A DNA stretch of 64,000 bases from an uncultured Nitrospira sp. (lineage in GTDB: Bacteria > Nitrospirota > Nitrospiria > Nitrospirales > Nitrospiraceae), in the NCBI GenBank assembly GCA_902500745.1, contig CABVRS010000002.1, positions 1-64,000 on the forward strand, given 5' to 3'. A program made the translations under genes and the position numbers. The notes beneath the pieces were generated by a model. The model did not search any database and had not been told where the DNA came from. It saw nothing but the letters and a program-made list of their open reading frames with translations. Below are positions 33,598 to 49,176 of the stretch, one piece after another; within the stretch, counting starts at the first letter, position 1; each line of letters begins with the position of its first letter.

Positions 33598-35871
33598 ATG
33601 GCTTTTGATGGAAATTCAACCGCGATTAGCAGAACAGCCACACTCTATGCGGATGTGATTGTTCCTCGTCATATCGAGAAATCGTTCACCTATCTCGTCC
33701 CACCTGTCTTAGCCCAGGCCATTGACGTTGGGAGCCGCGTCCTGGTTCCATTCGGTCGTGTCGCACTCGAAGGAGCGGTCATTTCGTTGACCAATGAGCT
33801 TCCGATAGAGATACAGACCGTTTCTCTTAAAGAGATCTCTGCTCTGGTTCAGAACGGACAAGATCCGTTCCTATCTCCCAAGCTGCTTGAACTCTCCCGC
33901 AAGATCGCCAACTATTACGTCGCACCCTGGGGCCAATGTCTTCGGCTTATATGTTCCTCGTTCGTAACGCGACAGACATCGCGCACTCGATATGTTGTCA
34001 CTCCGCAGGGGCGAGCAGCCTTGGCGACCGGCCGCTGTCCCGACGACTTGCGACCAACTCTTCAGCGAATTGCCCGTCGAACGAAGGGAGTCTTGTCATC
34101 GACTTTGCATCCGACTCGACGAAGCAGCACCTTGCGCATGATCGATATCCTCATCAAGGAGTCGTGGTTAACCCTCGTGCCTTTGGACAACACCAGCGGT
34201 GATCACCAGAGACGGCCCGGAAAGCTCGTTGCGTACGAGCGTGAGGATGGACTGCTGAGGAATACCGTGCTCCCCCCTACGAACCTTCCGGAATCGGATT
34301 TATCTTGGAGAGCGCGCATCATGGAATGCCTCCAAAGCAATCATATGGAGAAACTCGTTCTGCATGCTCCATGGCCACATCGAATCAGAAGGCTTGCCGA
34401 CGCCATTCAACAGGCACATTCACTGAAGCAATCCACCCTTGTGGTTACCGGCGAAAGTGCGAGAGCAGCCTGGCTCAAGCAACTGCTCTCAACCCTCACA
34501 GGACTTCAGATTACTCTCGCACATCCGTCCTCGGAATCCGACCGATTGGAACAGAATCACGGTTCACGACCATCGGTAATTGTAGGAACCCGCTCCGCCA
34601 TTTTTGCACCGATCGAATCGATTGGACTGATCTGGATCGAAGGAGAGGAGGACGCTGCTCTTAAAGAACCGCAGGAGCCTCGCTATCATGCTCGTGAGGT
34701 CGCCGAGCTGAGAGCAGAGAGTGAGCACGCACTCCTGGTGCTTGCTTCCGAACATCCATCTCTTGAGTCACAATTCGACGCCGCAGCCGAGCATCACACG
34801 GTTCAGCAGAATCTGGCGCTTCGGCCGAAGATTGAGCTGGTGGACCTTCGCAAGGAGCCAGGGGGTACTCTATTCAGCCGGAAACTCATCTCGGCAATGC
34901 AGGAAGCCCTTCAGACTCATTCGAAAATACTGCTCTTTCTTAATAGGAAAGGATATGCGAGGACCCTGGTGTGTCGAGATTGCAGCTGGGTTCCTCGCTG
35001 TGCCGCTTGTGCCGTGCCGTTCACCTACTACCGGGAGATCGGCCAACTCACCTGCCGCTACTGTGGGAGCTCGGATCGGTTGCCTGATTCCTGCCCTTCG
35101 TGTCATTCGTCACGTATGAGTCCTCTAGGAGACGGCACGGAACGAGTTGAGGCCGACACTCGACGTTTGTTTCCCCATGCCAAGATTGCGCGGATCGATG
35201 GTGACACGCTCCGGCGACCGGCTTCCGCCCGCCAGCTGTGGGAATCTGCCAGGTCTGGGACCTGGGATATTCTGATTGGGACGCAAGCCCTGTTTCGTCG
35301 AGAGCCTCTGCCCCAACATGATTTGATAGGCATTCTTCAGGCTGATTCTGGGTTGCACGTCTCTGATTTTCGATCCGCCGAGCAGACCTATCACCTGCTG
35401 ATTGATGCCGCAAGCTTAGCTTCCCCGGGATCGGTAGGAGGTCACGTCATCGTGCAGACACGCTTCCCCGCACATCATGCCGTCCAGGCTTTGCTATCGG
35501 GAGACCCCGATCGGTTCTATGAGGAAGAGCATGCCGCACGACGACTGCTTTACTACCCACCTCTGTGCCACCTCGCCGAGCTGTCGGTTATTGGGATGAG
35601 CCCTGAGATTGTGGAAGAAGCCGCAAAGCACTGGGCTATAGAGCTTCGTCGGAATGCCGATAACCAGGAATCCCTCATCGTGTTAGGCCCTGTACCAGCC
35701 ATCAACAGACAACCTCGAAACCACCAGCACCGCATGCTGGTAAAAGCACTTGATTGCCGGGTGCTGAGCCATCGAGTCCATGATTCCGTGCAGAGCTTGG
35801 AACGACGGTACCGAAAAGGGCAGGTCAAGTTTGTCATCGACATAGACCCGGTTGAAACCGGTCAAAGTTAA
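33598..35871 (+). CDS. priA: PriA-type primosomal protein with degenerate helicase motifs
   Basis: A 757-residue PriA homologue. The N-terminal DNA-binding part (about 12-110: YADVIVPRHIEKSFTYLVPP, GSRVLVPFGR) and the zinc module with all eight cysteines (CRDC, CAAC, CRYC, CPSC) are intact. The ATPase core is not. At the Walker A place, where PriA has a GVTGSGKT-type loop, residues 253-263 read LVLHAPWPHRI. The DEEH box reads IEGEED (347-352). Motif VI, usually AGRAGR, reads AASLASPGS. The protein is full length and in one frame, so it is not a broken gene. It probably still binds forks and loads or recruits other factors without helicase action, as proposed for the degenerate PriA of actinobacteria. 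Confidence 0.85.
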   Translation: MAFDGNSTAISRTATLYADVIVPRHIEKSFTYLVPPVLAQAIDVGSRVLVPFGRVALEGAVISLTNELPIEIQTVSLKEISALVQNGQDPFLSPKLLELSRKIANYYVAPWGQCLRLICSSFVTRQTSRTRYVVTPQGRAALATGRCPDDLRPTLQRIARRTKGVLSSTLHPTRRSSTLRMIDILIKESWLTLVPLDNTSGDHQRRPGKLVAYEREDGLLRNTVLPPTNLPESDLSWRARIMECLQSNHMEKLVLHAPWPHRIRRLADAIQQAHSLKQSTLVVTGESARAAWLKQLLSTLTGLQITLAHPSSESDRLEQNHGSRPSVIVGTRSAIFAPIESIGLIWIEGEEDAALKEPQEPRYHAREVAELRAESEHALLVLASEHPSLESQFDAAAEHHTVQQNLALRPKIELVDLRKEPGGTLFSRKLISAMQEALQTHSKILLFLNRKGYARTLVCRDCSWVPRCAACAVPFTYYREIGQLTCRYCGSSDRLPDSCPSCHSSRMSPLGDGTERVEADTRRLFPHAKIARIDGDTLRRPASARQLWESARSGTWDILIGTQALFRREPLPQHDLIGILQADSGLHVSDFRSAEQTYHLLIDAASLASPGSVGGHVIVQTRFPAHHAVQALLSGDPDRFYEEEHAARRLLYYPPLCHLAELSVIGMSPEIVEEAAKHWAIELRRNADNQESLIVLGPVPAINRQPRNHQHRMLVKALDCRVLSHRVHDSVQSLERRYRKGQVKFVIDIDPVETGQS

Positions 35872-36378: not shown

Positions 36379-36789
36379 TTAGCTCATCACTTCCGCCGCG
36401 ACCGTCTCCAGGAGAATCTTGAGCTCGACGGGTTTTTGAAGGGTTTGTCTGGCGCCACGCATTTTGGCGACATCCAAGAAATTGGTGACGCCGATTGTTT
36501 CACATCCTCCTGTCATGGCTATCACACAAGAATTTGGAAATTCCCGTCGGAGCATCATGATTCCTTCTAACCCATCTGGTTCAGGCATCAGGATGTCCAT
36601 GATCACACGATCGGTCGACTTCCTTCGATACCGCTCAAGCCCCTCTTCCTCGTTGCAGGTTTCTTCAACCTCATCGCCCGCTTGTTCGAGAGTCTCTCTG
36701 ATCAGCTGACGAACTTGGTCCTGATCGTCAACTACGAGGACCGACGGAATCCGAGACCTCGTTAGGTAGTGTGGATGGGTCTTGGTCAA
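36379..36789 (-). CDS. Stand-alone response regulator receiver
   Basis: A 136-residue receiver domain. VLVVDDQDQVRQL gives the acidic pocket, phospho-Asp is in VIMDILMPEPDG, Thr in VIAMTGG and Lys in TLQKPVEL. No output domain. The only start that keeps the first strand is TTG 36789, with AGG seven bases upstream, so the gene overlaps the end of the preceding PAS protein by 62 bases in a different frame. The frame is closed by a stop about 40 bases further up, so the two are not one broken gene in an obvious way. Confidence 0.75.
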   Translation of the reverse strand: MTKTHPHYLTRSRIPSVLVVDDQDQVRQLIRETLEQAGDEVEETCNEEEGLERYRRKSTDRVIMDILMPEPDGLEGIMMLRREFPNSCVIAMTGGCETIGVTNFLDVAKMRGARQTLQKPVELKILLETVAAEVMS

Positions 36790-39046
36790 CCGACCTGGAT
36801 ACTGAGTATGACGAAGCCTGGTCTAAGGCGCGGCGAACTCTTTGAGCCACCTCTCGAGCTTTTCGCCCCGCACCGATCACCTGGGTGATATGGCGATGAG
36901 CTTTGGTCTCGGCAGGGATCAACGCCAGTGCCAACTCGCTGAAACCCAGTACCGCGGTGAGACTATTGTTCAGCTCATGGGCAATACCACCGATCAAGGT
37001 TCTCATGGTCTCCATTTCTTCTACGACTCGTACCGCCACCGCGGTATTCGCACGATCAGTAATATCCACAAGCATCCCTATCGTATGTACAGGTTGCCGC
37101 TTACTCCCCTCACCATCAAATCGTGTCAGAGTGCAAAGACTGATGTGCCGAACCGCTCCATTCGGCCGGATGAGTCTGTGCTCAACCGTGTACAGTCCCT
37201 CTTTCCCCGTATCAAGTACACGTAAGGCTGCACAACGCATCCTCTCCCGGTCGCCTGGGTGAACCAGTTCCAAATAGCGTTCGAACGAAGGCAATTCATC
37301 GCCGCTGACCCCATAGATGTCACGCAAAATCGGTGACCAGACCTGAGTGTTCGTCCGATGATCATGCTCAAAGGTCCCAACCTGTCCCGCCAGGACGGCA
37401 AGATCGAATCTCGCCTTGATATCTGTGAGTGCTTCGTCGGTCCGCTCGGGAGCCGTGAGATCGATCATGGTGGTTAAGATGGTCTTCCCTTTGGACGGAT
37501 CAATGGGATGCAGACAGATTTCAACCGGGAATTCTGAGCCGTCCTTGCGAAGTCCATGCACTTTCCGACTGACGCTCATGAGATCTGATGCACCGGGTGA
37601 ACAACAGGTGGCGCGCGCGTTCCGCTGCGGCTCGCGATCTCGTACTGAAAGCAAACACTCGACGGGTCGGCCTAACAACTCGTCCCGAACGTACCCAAAC
37701 ATGCGTTCGACGTGGCTATTGACGAGAGAGATCGTCCCATCTTGGCGAGTCAGGAGCATCCCGTTAGGAACCGCCTCCATGACGGTCTTAAATTGATGAT
37801 CGCGTTCTTCCGCCATGGCCGCGACAAGCTTGTAGTCCGTGATGTCTTCAATCTTCCCAGACATGCGAATTGGCTGATCGGAAGAGCCCTGGATGAGCAC
37901 TCCACGGCAACGGACAAATCGAACATCACCCCCAGGCTGGATAATTCGACATTCGATATCATAGGGACGGTCGGAAGTGAATGTTTCCTCGACCAACGTG
38001 AGCACGCGATCGCGATCCTCTGGATGAAGAGCCTTCTTAAAGGTCTCATACGTCGGTGGAACCGAACCCGGCTCGTATCCAAAAACACGGTATTGCTCTT
38101 CCGACCAAATCTCAGCCCCATGACCGATTGCCCACCCCCAGTGTTCATTGTCCGCGATACTCTGACCTTTCCCCAGCAGATGTCCGGCGTGGAATGATTG
38201 GGTTTCAATTTGCCTCTGCCGAGAAATGTCCGAAAAGCAGATCAGAACGGATTCTTTCCCTTCCCACAGAATTGGAGCAACAGACAGTTCAACAACAACG
38301 CCCTGTCCGTCACATCGTAGGAATTGCGTTTCCAGTCGCTTGGTCGAATGACTCGATCGTATTGTCTGTACAATCCATAGGCGGACGGATTCCTGCAACT
38401 CACCGTACACAATATCGAGGTACGGGTTACCGATGACTTGTTCGGCGGATCCGGCACCGAGGATCTGTAGGCCGGCCTTGTTGACATACACGATCTCCGA
38501 TTCAGCCGTGACAAGCATACCTTCGGAGGCGAGATCGCATAGAAATGTGGGAGACGGCATCTGATGTAGTTCTGCTTGCACTTGTAGGAGGCGGGAGACA
38601 TCTCGCATCACCCAGATGACCGACCGAACCCGTCCTCTCCGATCTTGAATCGGAGACAACGTCACTTCATTCCAAAACGACGTCCCATTTTTCCTGTAGT
38701 GGCGGAGCGATACCCGGCACTCCCGCCCGTCTTGGAGTGCCAATGCAAGTTTCTCAATCGACACGCGATCAGTTGCGGGGCCGTTCAATATCACCGTTGT
38801 TTGTCCGACCACGTCCTGCTCGGCATAGCCGGTCAACGACAGGAACGCGTGATTCACATACAGAACGGGGTGATGTGGGAGCGTCGCATCCGTCACAAGG
38901 ACGCTGCAATTCGTGGCCGCAATAACCCGCGACTTCAGGACGTTCTCTTGGTACTGTCGAATTGCGAACCAGAGGGAGAAACCCACGAGCAGGAGCAACC
39001 CTAGGAAGAGACCAGCAGTCATGCAGGACAGCCTTCCGGTAGGCAC
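36728..39046 (-). CDS. Membrane multi-PAS protein with LOV-like domain and HisKA but no ATPase domain
   Basis: A 772-residue protein. One membrane helix lies at about residues 10-29. PAS 1 (about 40-150) is LOV-like: VLVTDATLPHHPVLYVN, then GQTTVILNGPATD where LOV has GxNCRFLQ, with Thr84 in place of the adduct-forming Cys, and YRKNGTSFWNEVTLSP. Four more PAS domains follow (about 165-280, 290-410, 415-540, 545-670). A HisKA helix pair has its His in GGIAHELNNSLTAVLG. The protein then ends after about 70 residues: no HATPase_c (N, G1, G2 boxes) is present. It cannot phosphorylate itself by known chemistry. It overlaps the receiver gene. It may be a deletion product of a hybrid kinase, or a phosphotransfer/sensory partner. 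Confidence 0.8.
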   Translation of the reverse strand: MPTGRLSCMTAGLFLGLLLLVGFSLWFAIRQYQENVLKSRVIAATNCSVLVTDATLPHHPVLYVNHAFLSLTGYAEQDVVGQTTVILNGPATDRVSIEKLALALQDGRECRVSLRHYRKNGTSFWNEVTLSPIQDRRGRVRSVIWVMRDVSRLLQVQAELHQMPSPTFLCDLASEGMLVTAESEIVYVNKAGLQILGAGSAEQVIGNPYLDIVYGELQESVRLWIVQTIRSSHSTKRLETQFLRCDGQGVVVELSVAPILWEGKESVLICFSDISRQRQIETQSFHAGHLLGKGQSIADNEHWGWAIGHGAEIWSEEQYRVFGYEPGSVPPTYETFKKALHPEDRDRVLTLVEETFTSDRPYDIECRIIQPGGDVRFVRCRGVLIQGSSDQPIRMSGKIEDITDYKLVAAMAEERDHQFKTVMEAVPNGMLLTRQDGTISLVNSHVERMFGYVRDELLGRPVECLLSVRDREPQRNARATCCSPGASDLMSVSRKVHGLRKDGSEFPVEICLHPIDPSKGKTILTTMIDLTAPERTDEALTDIKARFDLAVLAGQVGTFEHDHRTNTQVWSPILRDIYGVSGDELPSFERYLELVHPGDRERMRCAALRVLDTGKEGLYTVEHRLIRPNGAVRHISLCTLTRFDGEGSKRQPVHTIGMLVDITDRANTAVAVRVVEEMETMRTLIGGIAHELNNSLTAVLGFSELALALIPAETKAHRHITQVIGAGRKAREVAQRVRRALDQASSYSVSRSVDQDPSTLPNEVSDSVGPRS

Positions 39047-39173: not shown

Positions 39174-39836
39174 TCAGCCTTGCCGCTTGACGAAGAAGGC
39201 GGCCGCCTGCGCACGACGTGTGATACGAAGCTTCTGAAAAACGTTTGCGAGATAGTTTTTCACGGTCTTGTCGCTGAGCCCAAGCGCCACGGCAATTTCC
39301 TTGTTGGTCTTCCCCTCGGCCACCAAGGCGACGACTCGTTCTTCTTGCGATGAAAGTTGGTCGGTCCCTGGAGTCGATGGTAGATCGTGGAGTCCTCGCA
39401 GCCACCTCAGAGCCCGTTCGGTCACGGTAGAGTCCAAGATGGATTGGCCCTTGGCGACCGAACGGATGGCCTCCAGCAATCCCGGCGAGTCGATTTCCTT
39501 GAGCACATAGCCATGCGCGCCAGCGAGCACCGCGGCCAGCACCGAGTCGTCGTCCGCGTAGGACGTCAGAAAAATGACTCGCGTGCCCGGCAGCGTCCCA
39601 AGAATTTCTCGGCAGGCATCGACACCGGAACCATCCGGAAGACGCACATCCATCAAGACGACGTCTGGTTTCAGCTTCTGGGTCTGCTGAACAGCATCGG
39701 CCATGGTACCGGCTTCGCCTACCACGGTGATGCCCTGGTTTTGTGCCAGGACGGTCCGAAGCCCCACGCGAATCACTTCGTGATCGTCGACAAGCAAGAC
39801 ACGAATGGTTTGAACTTGAGTTTTAGTTGTGAGCAT
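39174..39836 (-). CDS. NarL/FixJ-family response regulator
   Basis: A 220-residue two-domain regulator. The receiver (about 10-125) has VLLVDDHEVIRVGL, phospho-Asp in VLMDVRLPDGSG and Lys in YVLKEID. The LuxR-type helix-turn-helix (about 150-215) shows LSSQEERVVALVAEGKTNKE and LSDKTVKNYLANVFQKL. ATG 39836 is chosen (AAGG upstream); longer readings overlap the giant kinase gene in another frame. It overlaps that gene by 14 bases and is surely its cognate regulator. It may also serve the second kinase at 46900. Confidence 0.9.
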   Translation of the reverse strand: MLTTKTQVQTIRVLLVDDHEVIRVGLRTVLAQNQGITVVGEAGTMADAVQQTQKLKPDVVLMDVRLPDGSGVDACREILGTLPGTRVIFLTSYADDDSVLAAVLAGAHGYVLKEIDSPGLLEAIRSVAKGQSILDSTVTERALRWLRGLHDLPSTPGTDQLSSQEERVVALVAEGKTNKEIAVALGLSDKTVKNYLANVFQKLRITRRAQAAAFFVKRQG

Positions 39837-42800
39837 AGTGACCATCCTTTGGAAGATCGAGTAAGATTTTCGTCCCCTTCCATGGTTTCGATTGAAGGGC
39901 AAACGACCCACGGACCTTTTGAGCCCGTGCCGCCATGTTCCGTAACCCGTGACCAACGCCTTGAGCCGACCGCGCATTAAACCCGATGCCATCGTCTCGA
40001 ATGGTGAGACGAGTCGTGTGGACGAGTTCCCGGAGGGAAACCATAATCCGCGTGGCTCGGCTGTGCCGCAACGCATTACTCAGTCCTTCGCGAACAACAT
40101 TGATAATATGAAGTGCCTGTTCGGTCGACAAGCGGCGTGCTGCCGCATCGTCGATCCGTATCCGACATTTCGCCGAAGAAGAACCGGACATCGTTTGGAC
40201 CATGGTTCGTAGTGCCGTTGGGAAATCCCCACCCTGGATCACCTCAGACTCAAGACCCGCGATAAAATTACGAACCTCTCCCATCACTTGATTGAGCTGC
40301 CCGATCGCATGATCGAGCGTTGACATGAATTTTGCTGCGACCTCTTCTGGTTGTTGCCGGATCATCGGTTTACAACCCTCTAACCCAAGCCCCACGGCGT
40401 ATAGCGATTGGAGAATACCGTCATGGAGATCCTGACTGATGCGCTCTCGCTCTTGGAGCGCGACGCTCAAATCTCGTTCCCGCTGCAGCAACATCTCCTC
40501 CATTCTCTTGCGCTCAGTAATGTCGGTCGCCGCACCGAGCACCATATGAACCTGCCCCTGATCGTCGTAAATCGGTCTTTTGATCGTCTGCAACCAACGA
40601 ATGTTTCCGTTCACATCGGTGAATTTCTCCTCCGGGATAAACCGATCTTGGCCGGAATTCATCACCTCAAGATCGTTTTCTCGGAAAAACTCCACCTCAT
40701 CCGCATTGGGGTTGAAATAAGCGTCTGTTTTCCCGATCAAGTCATCCACAGTCGTCCCATACCAGTCAGCGACAGCCTTGTTCGCGACCGAAAACCGTCC
40801 TTCACGGTCCTTGGCAAAGATAAGGTCTGGGTCCGTATCGATGACTTGTCGCAAAAACGTATGGGAACGTCGCAGCTCCGCTTCGGCTCGTTTGCGTTCT
40901 CCGATGTCCCTCAAGATCGCACAGCCGTACTCTTTCCCGTCGTACTGCAGATAATTGAAGGTGACCTCCATATCCAGTATCTCACCGGTGCGCGACCAAT
41001 ATTTTGCCTCGAATGCCAACGCACCTCGATCCTTCACGTGACCCCAATGCTCCGGCCATCGCTCGACAGGAAAATTGGGGTCAATGTCATGCACCGTCAT
41101 CAATATCAAATCCTGTCGTGAATACCCCAACATTCGGCACGCCGTATCGTTGACATTGAATATCCGAGCGGTCGGATCGAGCCACAAAATCGCTTCCACA
41201 GCCTGATCCACGGAGAACTGGGTCAACCGCAGCGCTTTCCCCATGCGCTTGCCCTCAGTGATGTCATCACCGACCGTGACCGAGCATTGCTTGCCGTTCA
41301 GCATGATCAGTTCAGATGATAAGAGGCACTGTCGGACCTCGCCGCTCTTGCTCCGCAGTTTCACTTCCGCATTCCGGACTGACCCTTCTCGCCTCAACAG
41401 CTCAAGGTACTGGGCCCGTTCTTCCATAGAATCCCAGAGCCCTATTTGTATCGTCGTGTGCTCCACCACCTCTTCTTTACAATACCCAAACAGCTGACAC
41501 GCAGCCTCGTTGATATCGACCACTCGACCGGTGTCCAGCTCGCTGATGACGACCGGATGGGGGCTGGCTTGGAACGCCTTGGCAAAGCGCTCTTCGCTAT
41601 TCCGCAGCGCTTCCTCCGCTTCCTTTCGCTCCGTAATGTCACTCGCAACGGTAACCACACAGAGCGTTCCATTGAGCTCTGCGAGATCAGCGGATGCCAG
41701 AAAGTAACGCAACGCACCTGCTTTGGTCTTCAAAGCAAATTCCATGTTGCGCACCGGCTCCCCGGCTCTGAGGCGCTCGATGACCCGCACTCGATCTTCG
41801 AGATTCGGCCAAATGCCGAGCATCAATGTGGTCTTGCCGATCACTTCCTCTCGACGAAAGCCGAACAGCTCCAGACAAGCATCATTGACCTCGATACAAA
41901 GGCCCGATCCGGCCTCGGTGATCCCAATCGGATGAGGACTTGCTCTGAAGGCTTTTGAGAATCGTTCCTCGCTTTCCCGAAGGCTGTGCTCCGCTCGCTT
42001 GCGCTCGGTGATATCGTCGCACACGATCAGAGCTAATGATTCTCCGTCCTGGCTGCGCAACACACGTGCAACCTCGCGTACCCACAACACCGTCCCATCC
42101 CCTCGCACCTTGCGAAACTCCCATTGCGCGACGCCTTCCGGATGACGGAAGAACGTTTCCATCTCGGCACAAATGCGCGCTCGATCTTCTTCGAAGAAAA
42201 TCGTCTCCACCGACTTCTGGACAAGGTCCTCCACACGGTAGCCCAAGTACTGCGCGCCATATTGGTTGACAGACCTGATGATTCGCGCGCTATCCACAGT
42301 GAAATACATGGAAGGAGTCTCATCATAGAGCGTTCGGTATCGCTCCTCGCTTTGACGCAAATCGTCTAGGGCCGCTTGGCGGTCTCGCTCACCACCGAGC
42401 CACCGTGCCATGAGTTGAATGAAATCTTTCTCGGTTTCGGTAAAATCTCTTGTCCTGGGTTCAACACCCACAAAACACAGGGTCCCGTAGGTGCGCTCTA
42501 GTCCACTAATCACGGTGCCGATGTACGACTCCAACTTTAGTGCGGCATAGGCTGGGTGTCCCTGCCACTCTGGAGAGGCCCCAGCATGTTCGAAGCTCAG
42601 CGGTCCGCCTCGGCGAAGAGTCTCACTACAATATGTCTTGTTCAGGGGCACACGCATGCCCTCGTAGAAAACCGTGCTGGGCGCGTTCAACCGTTTCACC
42701 TCTAACTCTTCTCCTAGGGCAATGGTCTCCATCCCGACTGGTAAGTCGAAGATGCGGCATCCCAGCTGGAGGAGGGCTTCAACCCGATCCTTGAACGACT

Positions 42801-45800
42801 GCCCCTGAGCGGACGAGATATCATGAAGCGCCCGAATTGCTTGTCGACTCTTCCAGAGCGCCTGTTCCGCTTGCCTCCGTTTCGTAATGTCTTTGCTCAG
42901 TGTGATCATGCACGATTTGCCGTGGTACTCGATCCGCTCCGCGGACACAAGGCAATCACGGCGTTCCCCGGCGGCGGTTCGAAGGACGGCTTCAAAATTG
43001 CGGATCGAGCCCTCTCGTTGCACTCTCTCGATGAAGCGGATCTGTTCATCCGGCGTCAACCAATGCTCAATCTCGTCCCCCCTTCGCCCCACTACTTCCT
43101 CTCGTGCATACCCAAGACCGGTAAGACAGGCATCATTGACATCCAGCCATCGGCCGGAGTCTAGCTCCACCAGCATCATCGGGTCCGGGCTGGACCGGAA
43201 CGCTTTCGAAAATAGTTCCTCGCTGGCCCGCAGTGCCTCCTCCGTCGCCTTACGTTCAGTGATGTCAACGGTCGCACCAATCAAGCGGGTCAACCGTCCG
43301 TCCTGGTCACGCACTGCATGACATCGAACATCCGTCCATATTGTGGAGCCATCCTTCTTCACCATGCGAAGCTCGTAGTGGCACTCTTCAGCCGCTCCGC
43401 GTTGCATCAGTTCCCAATGCTTCATGGCGATCGGCCGGTCGTCCGGATGAACCACATTTAACCAGGCAAAGGGATCGGTTGAAAGCTCATCGGGGGCATA
43501 GCCAAACAGAGCTTTCAGATTGGCATCCCCGTGGTAGTGCTCCTTGACAACATCCAAGTCCCATACCCCGACTTTTCCGATCGCGGTAGCACGCGCATAG
43601 CGCTCCTCACTGGCCTGCAATTCTGCGGTACGCTCGACGACCTTGTGCTCCAGTTCATCATGGGCAAGTCGGAGAGCCTGCTCTGCACGTTTGCGTTCCG
43701 TGATGTCTTGAAACGTTCCGTAGGCCCGAACTGCTCGGCCTTCAAGAACATCGACCTTACCGGCAGCCCGCACGGCAATCTGCCGTCCCTTTCCCGTGAT
43801 GAGCTCCACTTCGAGATCCCAGGGCATCCCCTGCGTCATCCCTTGCGCAAGCGCTTCGGCAATACGGGAACGACTCTCGGGTGTGTAGAAATTCAAGGCG
43901 GTTTCCACCGTTGGGCTGTACAACTCCGGCGTTGTGTCGTGCAACTGGTATGTTTCCTCACTCCATCGGAGACGGTTGGTTACAAAATCAAGTTCCCATC
44001 CCCCAATCTTACCGATCGCTTCTGTCTGCTTCATGAGTGCAAACTGTTGCTTGTGAGTTGTAATATCCTCTGCAATACCCGCAATGCGATTCTCCCACCC
44101 AGCCATTCTGACTCGGCGATCGGAAATCCAGCGGATACGGCCGTCTCGTGCCACGATCCGGTATTCGCAATGGAACACTGCGGTCATCCCTCCGCGAAGA
44201 AATCGATCATAAATTGTCTTCACCTGCATACGATCGTCCGGATGGATAGAGTCGAGCCAGAGAAACCAATTTTGGTAGATCTCCTCTCGCTCAATGCCCC
44301 AGATGAAGGTGAATGCCGAATTGACGTACAGCACCTTCCTTTCGTCAGCCGTCACCTCCGCAATCCAGAAAGCCGAACCGACCGACTCGGCAAACTGCTG
44401 GAACCGCGCCTGGCTCTCCCACAACGCCTCCTCAGCGCGCTTCCGCTCTGTAATATCGGTCGCGATGACACCGATGGCAACGAGATGCCCAGCGGCATCA
44501 GTCATAGGGAATTTCACCACGAGACTGGTATGAATCCCATCTTTCTGTTGCGTGACCTCCTCGAACTCCTGTCCTCGTCCACTCGCTAACACCTCTCGAT
44601 CATGCGATTGAAACTGATCAGCTTCTTCGGGTGAAAACAGTTCCTTATCCGTCTTTCCTATGGCCATGCCAGGAGCCAGCCCGAAAACCTCGTCGAATCG
44701 TCGGTTGGTATACACATAGCGACCGTCGTGATCCTTCAGGCATGTGACGTTTGGCGCGTGATCGAAAAATTGACGAAACCGCTCTTCGCTCCGACGTAAC
44801 GCCTCGGTCCGGTCGCACACCTGTTGTTCTAGCGTAGTATTAAGCGCGGCAACGGCTTCTTGCGCCGCCTTGCGCTCGATAATATCGGAAAAGAGCCCCA
44901 GGATAGCGGGCTTGCCGTTCCACATGATCCGTGCTGCTTCCACCTGAACCGGAACCGGTGTTCCATCTAACTTTAGATAGATTCGCTCTGCACTATGAAC
45001 GGACACTCCTCCGCTCAACAGCCGTGTCACATTCTCACGGACTTCCTGATGATAGTCAGGATGGATGAAGTCGAATGTCGGCCGGTCAAGAATTTCCTGC
45101 ACATCCGACGCTCCCATGAGAACGGCGCCTGTGTGATTGACATAGACGGTCCGTCCCTCACAGAAGACGAAGACGCCTGAAGGGGATAGCTCAACCAATT
45201 TTCGGTATCGTTCTTCGCTCTCCCGTACAACCTCCTCCATCATTTTGCGATCGGTGATGTCCGTATGCGAACCAAGGAGACGGATCTGGCGGCCATCGGA
45301 TTCCGCCACAAACGCAGCTCTCGCTTCAATCCATCGATACGTCCCATCCTTGTGCCGCAGACGAAATGCCTGCCGATAGTCTCCCTCACGTTTACATACA
45401 TAGTTCCGTAGGTACGAAATGGCGCGATCATGATCTTCCGGATGGAGCAGCAACTCCCAGGTCTCGAATGAGTCCACGAGCTCCGTCTTTTCATACCCAA
45501 GCTGGCGCTTCCATTCGTCGGAAAAGACCACGGCATTCGTTTCCGTATTCCAATCCCACAAGCCGGTACTTGACGCCTGGAGAGCCTGCCACTGCTTCTC
45601 TTGCGAGGTCCGCAGCGCCTCCTCGGCTTGCTTGCGTTCGGTAATGTCGAGCATGCTACCGGACATGGAAACCGGGCGACCGCTGGTATCACGAAAGACT
45701 TCGCCGCGGCAGTTGAGCACTCGAATCTCACCGTTTGGACGGACCACGCGACATTCCACATCGAAGATAGCCCGGCCTGCCAGCGCATTGTTGATGGCAT

Positions 45801-46620
45801 CTCGCACGTAGCTATAATCGTCCGGATAGAGCGCGCGCAGGAACGTCTCGTGAGTTACTCGAACGGTTCCCGGTTCGTAGCCAAACAGCCGATATTGTTC
45901 ATCCGACCACCACACGTCCCCGCGATCTATATCCCAGTCCCAGCTACCGAGGTGCGCCAGGGCTTGGGATTCAATCAAATGGCGTTGCTGATGATTCAGT
46001 TTGGTTTCCACCTGGCGACGCCGGAGTTCGGCTCCGGCGCGCGATGCAAAAACAGTCATCAGCGATTTCAGTCGTTGGGCATGTGGCAAGGGCTTGGTAT
46101 CCATGACCACGAGAAGCCCGATGACCGTGCCGTCTTTCGCACTGAGCGGCACCCCACAATAGCCCTCGACCTGCAGCTGGTCCAATCGTTCGAAGGTCGG
46201 AAACGAAGCCCGTACGTCTCGCTCGAAGCACGCAAAAGAGTATCTCAATGCTGATTCGCAGGGCGTGCCGACGAGAGGGTAGTCAAAATTCTCGACGAGG
46301 GAGCCTCCTGAAGCGACGGCAATGGTACGAATGGTCTTGGTGGCCTCTCGTTGGACCTCCCCGACGATTGCATATTGCACGCCGAACACCGAGCACAGAT
46401 GGAGCACTAACGTGTGAAAAAAGTCTTCGCCGGTCTCCGCTGCGGTCCCAGCGACGATGGCACGAAACATTTCGGATTGCTCCCGAAGATCTTGTACCTC
46501 GTCGTCCAGCTGTCGATTGTGATGACGAAAGGCCTGGTCTCGTTCTGACAATTCACGCGCTAAGTCGGCGACCTGCTTTCGCAACAGCTCTACTTCAGGA
46601 GGATGACTTATCGGACTCAT
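39823..46620 (-). CDS. Giant cytoplasmic multi-PAS/GAF histidine kinase (NarL-type)
   Basis: A 2265-residue protein without membrane segments. Order: coiled coil (about 1-50), GAF 1 (50-205), PAS 1-8 (about 215-1290), GAF 2 (about 1300-1470), PAS 9-13 (about 1480-2040), then HisKA_3 with phospho-His in ERISQDLHDGILQSLY (about 2066) and HATPase_c (VREGLSNALRHSRATR, IRDDGIGFN, GHGLRNMAARA). Nearly every PAS ends in the DITERK linker. This is far longer than usual kinases of the class and suggests integration of many small-molecule or redox cues. It has an ideal AAGGAG seven bases before ATG 46620 and shares an upstream element with its paralogue at 46900. Its partner is the overlapping NarL regulator. 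Confidence 0.9.
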   Translation of the reverse strand: MSPISHPPEVELLRKQVADLARELSERDQAFRHHNRQLDDEVQDLREQSEMFRAIVAGTAAETGEDFFHTLVLHLCSVFGVQYAIVGEVQREATKTIRTIAVASGGSLVENFDYPLVGTPCESALRYSFACFERDVRASFPTFERLDQLQVEGYCGVPLSAKDGTVIGLLVVMDTKPLPHAQRLKSLMTVFASRAGAELRRRQVETKLNHQQRHLIESQALAHLGSWDWDIDRGDVWWSDEQYRLFGYEPGTVRVTHETFLRALYPDDYSYVRDAINNALAGRAIFDVECRVVRPNGEIRVLNCRGEVFRDTSGRPVSMSGSMLDITERKQAEEALRTSQEKQWQALQASSTGLWDWNTETNAVVFSDEWKRQLGYEKTELVDSFETWELLLHPEDHDRAISYLRNYVCKREGDYRQAFRLRHKDGTYRWIEARAAFVAESDGRQIRLLGSHTDITDRKMMEEVVRESEERYRKLVELSPSGVFVFCEGRTVYVNHTGAVLMGASDVQEILDRPTFDFIHPDYHQEVRENVTRLLSGGVSVHSAERIYLKLDGTPVPVQVEAARIMWNGKPAILGLFSDIIERKAAQEAVAALNTTLEQQVCDRTEALRRSEERFRQFFDHAPNVTCLKDHDGRYVYTNRRFDEVFGLAPGMAIGKTDKELFSPEEADQFQSHDREVLASGRGQEFEEVTQQKDGIHTSLVVKFPMTDAAGHLVAIGVIATDITERKRAEEALWESQARFQQFAESVGSAFWIAEVTADERKVLYVNSAFTFIWGIEREEIYQNWFLWLDSIHPDDRMQVKTIYDRFLRGGMTAVFHCEYRIVARDGRIRWISDRRVRMAGWENRIAGIAEDITTHKQQFALMKQTEAIGKIGGWELDFVTNRLRWSEETYQLHDTTPELYSPTVETALNFYTPESRSRIAEALAQGMTQGMPWDLEVELITGKGRQIAVRAAGKVDVLEGRAVRAYGTFQDITERKRAEQALRLAHDELEHKVVERTAELQASEERYARATAIGKVGVWDLDVVKEHYHGDANLKALFGYAPDELSTDPFAWLNVVHPDDRPIAMKHWELMQRGAAEECHYELRMVKKDGSTIWTDVRCHAVRDQDGRLTRLIGATVDITERKATEEALRASEELFSKAFRSSPDPMMLVELDSGRWLDVNDACLTGLGYAREEVVGRRGDEIEHWLTPDEQIRFIERVQREGSIRNFEAVLRTAAGERRDCLVSAERIEYHGKSCMITLSKDITKRRQAEQALWKSRQAIRALHDISSAQGQSFKDRVEALLQLGCRIFDLPVGMETIALGEELEVKRLNAPSTVFYEGMRVPLNKTYCSETLRRGGPLSFEHAGASPEWQGHPAYAALKLESYIGTVISGLERTYGTLCFVGVEPRTRDFTETEKDFIQLMARWLGGERDRQAALDDLRQSEERYRTLYDETPSMYFTVDSARIIRSVNQYGAQYLGYRVEDLVQKSVETIFFEEDRARICAEMETFFRHPEGVAQWEFRKVRGDGTVLWVREVARVLRSQDGESLALIVCDDITERKRAEHSLRESEERFSKAFRASPHPIGITEAGSGLCIEVNDACLELFGFRREEVIGKTTLMLGIWPNLEDRVRVIERLRAGEPVRNMEFALKTKAGALRYFLASADLAELNGTLCVVTVASDITERKEAEEALRNSEERFAKAFQASPHPVVISELDTGRVVDINEAACQLFGYCKEEVVEHTTIQIGLWDSMEERAQYLELLRREGSVRNAEVKLRSKSGEVRQCLLSSELIMLNGKQCSVTVGDDITEGKRMGKALRLTQFSVDQAVEAILWLDPTARIFNVNDTACRMLGYSRQDLILMTVHDIDPNFPVERWPEHWGHVKDRGALAFEAKYWSRTGEILDMEVTFNYLQYDGKEYGCAILRDIGERKRAEAELRRSHTFLRQVIDTDPDLIFAKDREGRFSVANKAVADWYGTTVDDLIGKTDAYFNPNADEVEFFRENDLEVMNSGQDRFIPEEKFTDVNGNIRWLQTIKRPIYDDQGQVHMVLGAATDITERKRMEEMLLQRERDLSVALQERERISQDLHDGILQSLYAVGLGLEGCKPMIRQQPEEVAAKFMSTLDHAIGQLNQVMGEVRNFIAGLESEVIQGGDFPTALRTMVQTMSGSSSAKCRIRIDDAAARRLSTEQALHIINVVREGLSNALRHSRATRIMVSLRELVHTTRLTIRDDGIGFNARSAQGVGHGLRNMAARAQKVRGSFALQSKPWKGTKILLDLPKDGHYAHN

Positions 46621-46899: not shown

Positions 46900-49176
46900 T
46901 CAGATAGATCCTCTTGTATCCTTTTGAAGGTCGAGCAGAATTCTTGTGCCTTTACCCGGTTCCGATCGTACGGCGAACAACCCACCAACTTTTACAGCCC
47001 GCGCCGCCATGTTTTCTAACCCATGACCGACACCGTGGACCGACTTGGGATTGAATCCGATACCGTTATCAATGATCGTCAGCCGGATAGAACCGACGAG
47101 CCGTCCCAATGACACGGTAATGCGTGTGGCATGACTGTGACGGATGGAATTACTCAACCCTTCCCGCACGATATTGATGAGATGGAGCGCCGACTCGGTT
47201 GAGATATACTCCCCAGCCTCGTCGTCGATCCGCACCCGACATGTGGCCGAAGATACACCGCACATGGTTTGGACCATGGTCCGCAAGGCCGTCGAGATGT
47301 CACCCCCTTGCATGAGGTGGGACTCGAGACCCATAATAAAATTTCGCACCTCTCCCATCACGTCGTTGAGTTGCCCAATTGACTGATCTAATGTCCTGAC
47401 AAGGTCGTCGGTGATGTGTTCTGGTTGTTGTGCGATCAGCAGCTTACACGTCTCTAACCCAAGCCCAGCCGCATAGAGAGATTGGAGAATACCATCGTGG
47501 AGGTCCTGGCTGATCCGTTCCCGCTCCTGAAGTGCGGCGCTCAGATCTCGTTCCCGTTGTAGGAGCATCTCTTCCATCTGCTTGCGCTCCGTAATATCGG
47601 TCGCCGTACCAAGCACCATGTGGGCCTGTCCATCTTCATCGACAATCGGTCGCCTGATCGTCTGCAGCCAGCGCGTCTTTCCAGACCAATCGGTGATCTT
47701 TTCCTCAGCGACAAAGCAGTCCTGCAGAGAATCCAAGACCTGGAGATCCTTCTGGCGAATGAACTCCACCTCTTCCACATTGGGGTTAAAGTCAGCGTCC
47801 GACTGACTGATGAGATTCTCTACCGTGCTTCCGTAACAATCGGCAACCGCTTTGTTGACCATCGTAAACCGCCCTTCCCGATCCTTCGCGAAGATAAAGT
47901 TCGGATCGCTGTCGATCACCTGCCGCAAGAAAGTGTGAGATCGGCGCAACTCGTCTTCAGCCCGTTTCCGATCGGTGATATCATCTCCAACCGTCACACT
48001 ACATTGCTTGCCGTTCAATTCGATCAGTTCCGAGGATAGAAGAGACTGGCGGATTTCACCGTTTTTCCTCCGCAGTTTTACTTCCATGTTGCGGACTGAT
48101 CCCGTACGATTCAATCCATCAACAAATTGTGCTCGCTCCTCGGCAGAATGCCAAATCCCCATCTCTAGCAGGGTGGTGGGTGTCTCAATCTCTTCCCTGC
48201 GATACCCCAACAGCGTCAGTGCAGCATCGTTGACATCCACCAGCCGACCAGTCTCCATCTCGCTGATGACAATAGGATGGGGGCTCGTTCTGAACGCCTT
48301 GGCAAACCGTTCCTCGCTGGCACGCAGGGCCTCCTCAGTCTGCTGCCGATCAGTGATATCCGACACCAGGGCGATGACGGCAGGCGTGCCGTTCCACGTG
48401 ATCCGCGCCGCCTCAACTTGAACCGGAACCGGTGTTCCGTCTTTTTTGAGATAGATCCGTTCCGCGCTATGGACGGACGCTCTCCCGACAAGTAAGCGCT
48501 CCACGTTCTCACGGACCTCTTGGTGAAAATCTGGATGGATAAATTCGAACATCGGTCGCTCGAGAATTTCATGGGGGTCATTCGCTCCCATGAGAATGGC
48601 GCCTCTGTGGTTGACATACACGGTCCGGCCTTCACAGAAGACGAAGACCCCAGAAGGTGATAGTTCGACCAACGTTCGGTACCGGTCTTCACTCTCTCGC
48701 ACCGCCTCCTCCATCCGTTTCCGTTCGGTGATGTCCTGAACGGACCCGGACATGCGACATGGTGTTCCCTTATCGTCGCGGAGGACCTCGCCACAGCAAT
48801 GGATCATCCGCACGTCACCGCTTGGACGAACGATCTTGTACTCCAGATCCAACGGCGCCTTTCCCCCCAGCGCATCATTGATTGCCGCGACGACCCGATC
48901 ATGATCCTCCGGTAAAAGTGCCGATACCAAGACCTCAAAGGTCGTGTGGTACGACCCAGGTTCGCGACCGAATATGCGATGGACCTCATTCGAGCATCGA
49001 ATCTCGCCGCTCTCGATCTCCCAATCCCAGCTACCCAGATGGGCCAGAGACTGCGCAACACGGAGGTGGCGCGATCGCTCGTGCAACACACTGTCCCGTT
49101 CGGCCAGCTCGCGCGAGAGATCGACGATCCGCCTGCGCAGCAGATCCAACACAGAAAGGTTGCTGGTAGAGATCAT
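46900..49176 (-). CDS. Four-PAS NarL-type histidine kinase, paralogue of the giant kinase
   Basis: A 758-residue cytoplasmic kinase: PAS 1 (about 45-165), PAS 2 (175-290), PAS 3 (300-420), PAS 4 (425-545), HisKA_3 (phospho-His in ERISQDLHDGILQSLYAAGL) and HATPase_c (VREGLSNSIRHSHATR, IDNGIGFNPKS, GHGLENMAARA). Its four PAS domains match PAS 1, 3, 11 and 13 of the giant kinase, in order, so one gene arose from the other by tandem duplication with loss or gain of internal domains. AAGGAG precedes ATG 49176. No regulator gene follows it; it likely shares the NarL protein at 39174. Confidence 0.9.
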   Translation of the reverse strand: MISTSNLSVLDLLRRRIVDLSRELAERDSVLHERSRHLRVAQSLAHLGSWDWEIESGEIRCSNEVHRIFGREPGSYHTTFEVLVSALLPEDHDRVVAAINDALGGKAPLDLEYKIVRPSGDVRMIHCCGEVLRDDKGTPCRMSGSVQDITERKRMEEAVRESEDRYRTLVELSPSGVFVFCEGRTVYVNHRGAILMGANDPHEILERPMFEFIHPDFHQEVRENVERLLVGRASVHSAERIYLKKDGTPVPVQVEAARITWNGTPAVIALVSDITDRQQTEEALRASEERFAKAFRTSPHPIVISEMETGRLVDVNDAALTLLGYRREEIETPTTLLEMGIWHSAEERAQFVDGLNRTGSVRNMEVKLRRKNGEIRQSLLSSELIELNGKQCSVTVGDDITDRKRAEDELRRSHTFLRQVIDSDPNFIFAKDREGRFTMVNKAVADCYGSTVENLISQSDADFNPNVEEVEFIRQKDLQVLDSLQDCFVAEEKITDWSGKTRWLQTIRRPIVDEDGQAHMVLGTATDITERKQMEEMLLQRERDLSAALQERERISQDLHDGILQSLYAAGLGLETCKLLIAQQPEHITDDLVRTLDQSIGQLNDVMGEVRNFIMGLESHLMQGGDISTALRTMVQTMCGVSSATCRVRIDDEAGEYISTESALHLINIVREGLSNSIRHSHATRITVSLGRLVGSIRLTIIDNGIGFNPKSVHGVGHGLENMAARAVKVGGLFAVRSEPGKGTRILLDLQKDTRGSI

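Follow-up and report, generated by a model that had tools for sequence, protein, structure and literature searches.

The window, that is, the whole stretch of 64,000 nucleotides analysed here, comes from an uncultured Nitrospira sp. and carries at 33598-35871 (+) an ORF of 757 aa, which has an ATG start, is open throughout and encodes a full-length PriA, a protein that in other bacteria spends ATP in helping stalled replication to resume. The window protein matched the Pfam domains PriA_3primeBD (1.8e-21), Zn_ribbon_PriA (2.8e-6) and PriA_C (6.2e-9), scored 351 bits against NCBIfam TIGR00595 (cut-off 230) and resembled the solved E. coli and Klebsiella PriA at an E of about 7e-71; the generic helicase models of Pfam gave no match. 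The features of the gene are:

33598..35871, +, priA, probable pseudohelicase form, 757 aa (ORF, Pfam, NCBIfam, similarity to solved PriA)
33652..33951, +, 3'-end (fork) DNA-binding domain, residues 19-118, intact (Pfam PF17764, E=1.8e-21)
34363..34386, +, former motif I (Walker A), residues 256-263, HAPWPHRI for GVTGSGKT (alignment with E. coli and 140 Nitrospirota PriAs)
34585..34593, +, GTR, residues 330-332, retained in nearly all relatives (alignment, residue table)
34639..34650, +, former motif II (DEEH), residues 348-351, EGEE (alignment, residue table)
34972..35103, +, cysteine-rich region with eight zinc cysteines (residues 459-502), all invariant (Pfam PF18319, alignment)
35413..35430, +, former motif VI (GRAGR), residues 606-611, SLASPG, both arginines gone (alignment)
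35560..35850, +, PriA C-terminal domain, residues 655-751 (Pfam PF18074, E=6.2e-9)

The protein has the features that mark a PriA, namely the 3'-DNA-binding domain, the zinc region of four CxxC pairs in the second helicase lobe, the C-terminal domain and the overall fold. In the residue table the Phe, Tyr, Gly and Lys of E. coli PriA that align with its 3'-DNA-binding domain are retained, and the CxxC pairs C459/462, 468/471, 486/489 and 499/502 do not vary among the 64 members of the clade described below. The residue numbers expected for the SSB-tail pocket of PriA did not fit the alignment.

Elsewhere in the window, a gene at 36728-39046 (-) encodes several PAS domains and a weak HisKA match at its end, with no HATPase domain detected. 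It overlaps a receiver-domain gene (36379-36789) and is either a sensor kinase without catalytic domain or a frameshifted gene. Further, the 2265-aa and 758-aa proteins encoded at 39823-46620 and 46900-49176 (-) match the same proteins in relatives, which suggests a domain common to both; next to this pair lies a gene for a response regulator of the LuxR type (39174-40076).

With E. coli PriA (locus L056, NC_000913) as motif reference, motif I was found to change from GVTGSGKT to HAPWPHRI (residues 256-263), motif II from DEEH to EGEE (348-351), motif III from SATP to SEHP, motif V from GTQMLAKG to GTQALFRR and motif VI from GRAGR to SLASP (606-610). The window PriA is thereby without the Walker A, DEEH box and motif VI arginines that characterise PriA as a superfamily 2 helicase. 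An earlier sequence-only reading of this DNA had given the replacements of Walker A, DEEH and AGRAGR (the last by SLASPG), together with an intact zinc module of four CxxC pairs, an intact DNA-binding N-terminus and a frame open over 757 codons, and the alignment to E. coli and Nitrospirota PriAs, the Pfam matches and the ORF bear this out. It had also named in advance, as evidence against itself, a Walker A or DEEH at shifted positions. A pattern search of the whole protein for [AG]xxxxGK[ST], GK[ST], DExH/D/Q and GRxGR returned none of these, hence the motifs have not merely moved.

The alignment of 140 Nitrospirota sequences showed the P-loop to be missing from all 64 PriAs of a clade, here called A, which comprises four families of the window's order and one further family of its class (f9); the six remaining families sampled from that class have it intact. 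The P-loop pattern occurs in 40 of the 41 helicase-type PriAs of the phylum versus 0 of 64 in clade A, a contrast due neither to chance nor to assembly error. Loss of motifs was also seen in at least eight loci named Nitrospira sp. or Nitrospirales bacterium in public records, and their sequence similarity likewise points to a Nitrospira origin of the window. The loss is not uniform, as family f4 is without Walker A and has kept DEEH; in that family, if not elsewhere, the P-loop was thus lost earlier than the DEEH box.

PriA was detected at E below 1e-40 in 185 of 198 genomes drawn over the phylum, exactly one in each, and in none of the 185 do an intact and a degenerate form occur together. 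The window's own genome also has one; as this genome is only 80% complete, a second copy was ruled out by means of the relatives. The other TIGR00595 match in the genome (C91) was considered as a second PriA and rejected, since it is a brief match of 55 bits within a long frame and covers a section of TIGR00595 at which relatives show Mfd-length proteins (about 1157 aa). A second canonical PriA, which the earlier reading had likewise set against itself beforehand, is thus absent from this genome and from beside the degenerate copy in any relative. Three genomes of the same genus (G007, G017 and G159, 90-99% complete by estimate) gave no PriA even with an order-wide profile, which reflects either assembly gaps or real loss. 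In two loci (L050 of G020 and L024 of G029) the PriA frame lies in several pieces, where assembly errors are likelier than decay.

Outside the class, a second clade (B) of eleven families and 35 sequences has PriA without P-loop, DEEH and motif VI, and its nearest families (f34, f32 and f22) are of the helicase type. Five of the six clade B genomes tested carry dsrA, which fits sulphate reducers such as Thermodesulfovibrionia. The rpoB tree nests A within its class and places B elsewhere, each with helicase-type sisters, and hence we find it most likely that the ATP motifs have been lost at least twice within the phylum.

Alternatively, the pseudohelicase form may have arisen only once, one of the two clades having acquired it from the other by gene transfer. 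The former Walker A often starts with HAP in both A and B, the first PriA gene tree joined them with a support of 89, and on PriA data alone, with the longest rows removed, a joint clade was not formally rejected (p-AU 0.14). The PriA gene tree is, however, hampered by long branches. In the reduced row set a grouping of the Nitrospirales clade with its own class was not rejected (AU p 0.26). Once the longest rows were removed B grouped with its own helicase-type sisters at a support of 100, and in the full tree holding B beside these sisters gave a likelihood 31 units higher (p-AU 0.90). After these constraint and reduced-row tests we treated the union of A and B in the first tree as long-branch attraction. 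As rpoB also rejects A and B as one clade of species (p-AU 6e-48), we regard a single origin with transfer as unlikely.

Purifying selection clearly acts on the degenerate gene. Among 63 pairs from the same genus whose dS was less than 1, the median dN/dS of the whole gene was 0.23; the values come from Nei-Gojobori counts by purpose-written code and are rough, but far from 1. By domain, dN/dS was 0.16-0.22, except for the winged helix, which had the highest value (0.41), and the patch around the former Walker A (residues 250-290) gave 0.19. The helicase motifs have thus gone and selection has maintained the other parts of PriA, which is one of the marks of a PriA pseudohelicase of the D. radiodurans type. 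The sequence-only reading had taken the open frame to point to selection for a non-helicase role, and the motif loss, the order-wide conservation and the low dN/dS together support this.

Among the positions conserved in at least 95% of helicase-type PriAs, 39 are lost in the window clade, mostly clustered in motifs I, Ia, II, III, V and VI, and 42 are kept, including the eight zinc cysteines and the C-terminal G697, P698, D750 and P751. At least 80% of clade A sequences keep the zinc cysteines, G302 and R304 of the GTR (E. coli numbering), R338, the GT of motif V, D567, R569, E572 and the C-terminal GP and DP. An AlphaFold model built from nine rows, the window and named-relative sequences (mean pLDDT 71.8, pTM 0.71), is predicted to retain both RecA-like lobes and all PriA domains. 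Its five best PDB matches were all E. coli or Klebsiella PriA (Z 26-29), with 6dcr at Z 29.2 over 612 residues and 3.7 A, and the next was Mfd (18.8). The window PriA therefore appears to keep the PriA fold in the model, though a common fold does not show function.

It might be argued that an unrecognised nucleotide site still makes the protein an ATPase, and hence a helicase whose motifs are non-canonical. The patch of the former Walker A is constrained, HAPWxHR recurs in the genus, and some residues linked to the ATP site (E254, E322 and the GT of motif V) are largely kept in the window clade. On the other hand, there is no GK[ST], no DExH and neither arginine of motif VI, the single change K230R abolishes both ATPase and helicase activity of E. 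coli PriA (PMC4504706), and the PriA of Deinococcus radiodurans is inactive with milder changes (PMC4504706). We therefore hold a cryptic ATPase to be very improbable.

Instead, we suggest that the window PriA is very probably an ATPase-dead scaffold which would recognise abandoned forks and recruit DnaB to them, probably together with DciA; this draws on the residues lost and kept, the model and the analogy with Deinococcus. The 3'-DNA-binding, winged-helix and C-terminal domains would recognise the abandoned fork or D-loop, in line with PriA biology and with the domains and fold that are kept. The RecA-like lobes and the zinc-bound cysteine-rich region would remain as a platform for binding DNA and protein, with no ATP-driven translocation, since a protein without Walker A, DEEH and the two arginines of motif VI should be unable to bind or hydrolyse ATP. 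PriA, either directly or with the help of DciA, would then return DnaB to the fork but would not clear the lagging-strand arm itself; this step is suggested because D. radiodurans PriA binds forks and DnaB without ATPase and because the DnaB partner DciA was found. Finally, the arm might be unwound by another helicase (UvrD/Rep-type or RecG), or only forks that already hold ssDNA might be used. ATPase-deficient mutants of E. coli PriA still assemble primosomes (PMC4504706), and work in Caulobacter suggests that DciA may act with PriA (PMC9825169).

DciA, the DnaB loader or operator, was found in 34 of 39 genomes of the order and in 30 of 30 others, and a UvrD-type helicase in all 33 genomes searched. 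The sequence-only reading had proposed a check for a DnaD-type loader; none was found in 20 genomes, and DciA is present instead. We rejected DciA as the explanation of the motif loss, as it is equally common beside helicase-type PriA; with UvrD also found there, neither explains why the activity was lost. Most of the Nitrospirales genomes tested show just one UvrD/Rep-type protein of about 690 aa together with a long protein of about 1130 aa; missing from them is a UvrD-type protein of about 750-780 aa (925 aa in one case) that scores higher and occurs in helicase-type members of the class. In several clade B genomes (e.g. G105, G120, G161) DciA scores are unusually low (E 1e-7 to 1e-12), which could mean a joint change of PriA and DciA.

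We further speculate, with considerable doubt, that after at least two parallel losses the former ATP site (HAPWxHR in the window genus, HAPSxxYE in clade B) was rebuilt into a conserved contact surface for a restart centred on DnaB and DciA. PriA would then be a passive beacon at the fork, which another helicase would prepare.

Loss of catalysis would also permit a function other than replication restart, and to our knowledge no restart assay exists in this lineage. Yet the parts kept, the 3'-DNA-binding domain, the zinc region and the C-terminal domain, are those for fork binding and restart, and the genomes hold no other PriA, so such repurposing seems highly unlikely. The eroded motifs and the three PriA-less genomes of the genus might suggest a pseudogene in decay that is about to be lost, with restart by a PriA-independent path. 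This is extremely improbable: the frame is open in nearly all relatives, all domains apart from the winged helix have a dN/dS of about 0.2, the zinc cysteines do not vary, and the gene has persisted throughout the order since before four families diverged.

Regarding novelty, the sequence-only reading knew of no description of a degenerate PriA in this lineage, and we found no paper in the open-licence literature with Nitrospirota PriA as its subject. It missed that the PriA pseudohelicase as a kind is already known biochemically from Deinococcus-Thermus (D. radiodurans), and also the breadth of the loss, which spans the whole order and a separate second clade of the phylum. New here are the lineage, the breadth of the state, the loss that probably took place in parallel in two clades of a single phylum, and a misleading family name: TIGR00595, 'replication restart helicase PriA', accepts the window protein, so that proteins of this sort will be named helicases. 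A protein kept very long after the probable loss of its activity points to fork recognition and recruitment of DnaB as its conserved job. A phylum with many helicase-type lineages and two likely independent losses offers a natural experiment on the non-unwinding job of PriA, alongside Deinococcus as the one biochemical case.

Compared with the canonical PriA helicases of E. coli and Klebsiella (PDB 4nl4, 6dgd, 8fak, 6dcr), the window PriA has the common domains, zinc cysteines and fold (Z 26-29), but not the Walker A, DEEH and motif VI arginines. The PriAs of other families in the same class and phylum are orthologs, likewise one per genome, and unlike the window PriA they have intact GSGKT, DEEH or DEEQ, and GRxGR. 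Actinobacterial PriA is a divergent PriA, as is that of the window, and is not known to carry the helicase motifs; we take the PRK14873 models to represent this form. Against these models the window PriA scored at best 187 bits (cut-off 812), versus 422 bits with the general PRK05580.1-3 model (below its own cut-off of 813), which places it outside the PRK14873 subfamily. The actinobacterial protein has been described as a smaller, very divergent putative ortholog (PMC1193525), and that of M. tuberculosis (Rv1402) is listed as essential (PMC5694481). Closest in kind is D. radiodurans PriA, a pseudohelicase shown biochemically to have no ATPase or unwinding activity while binding fork DNA and DnaB (Lopper, Boone and Morrow 2015, PMC4504706). 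There, motifs I and II are poor matches and the Walker lysine is an arginine (PMC4504706), whereas the window PriA, which belongs to another phylum, has nothing left of motif I and shows changes in motifs III, V and VI as well. Both proteins combine the full PriA architecture with the loss of working helicase motifs, in D. radiodurans in an organism without clear PriB and DnaT, a further likeness to the present case.
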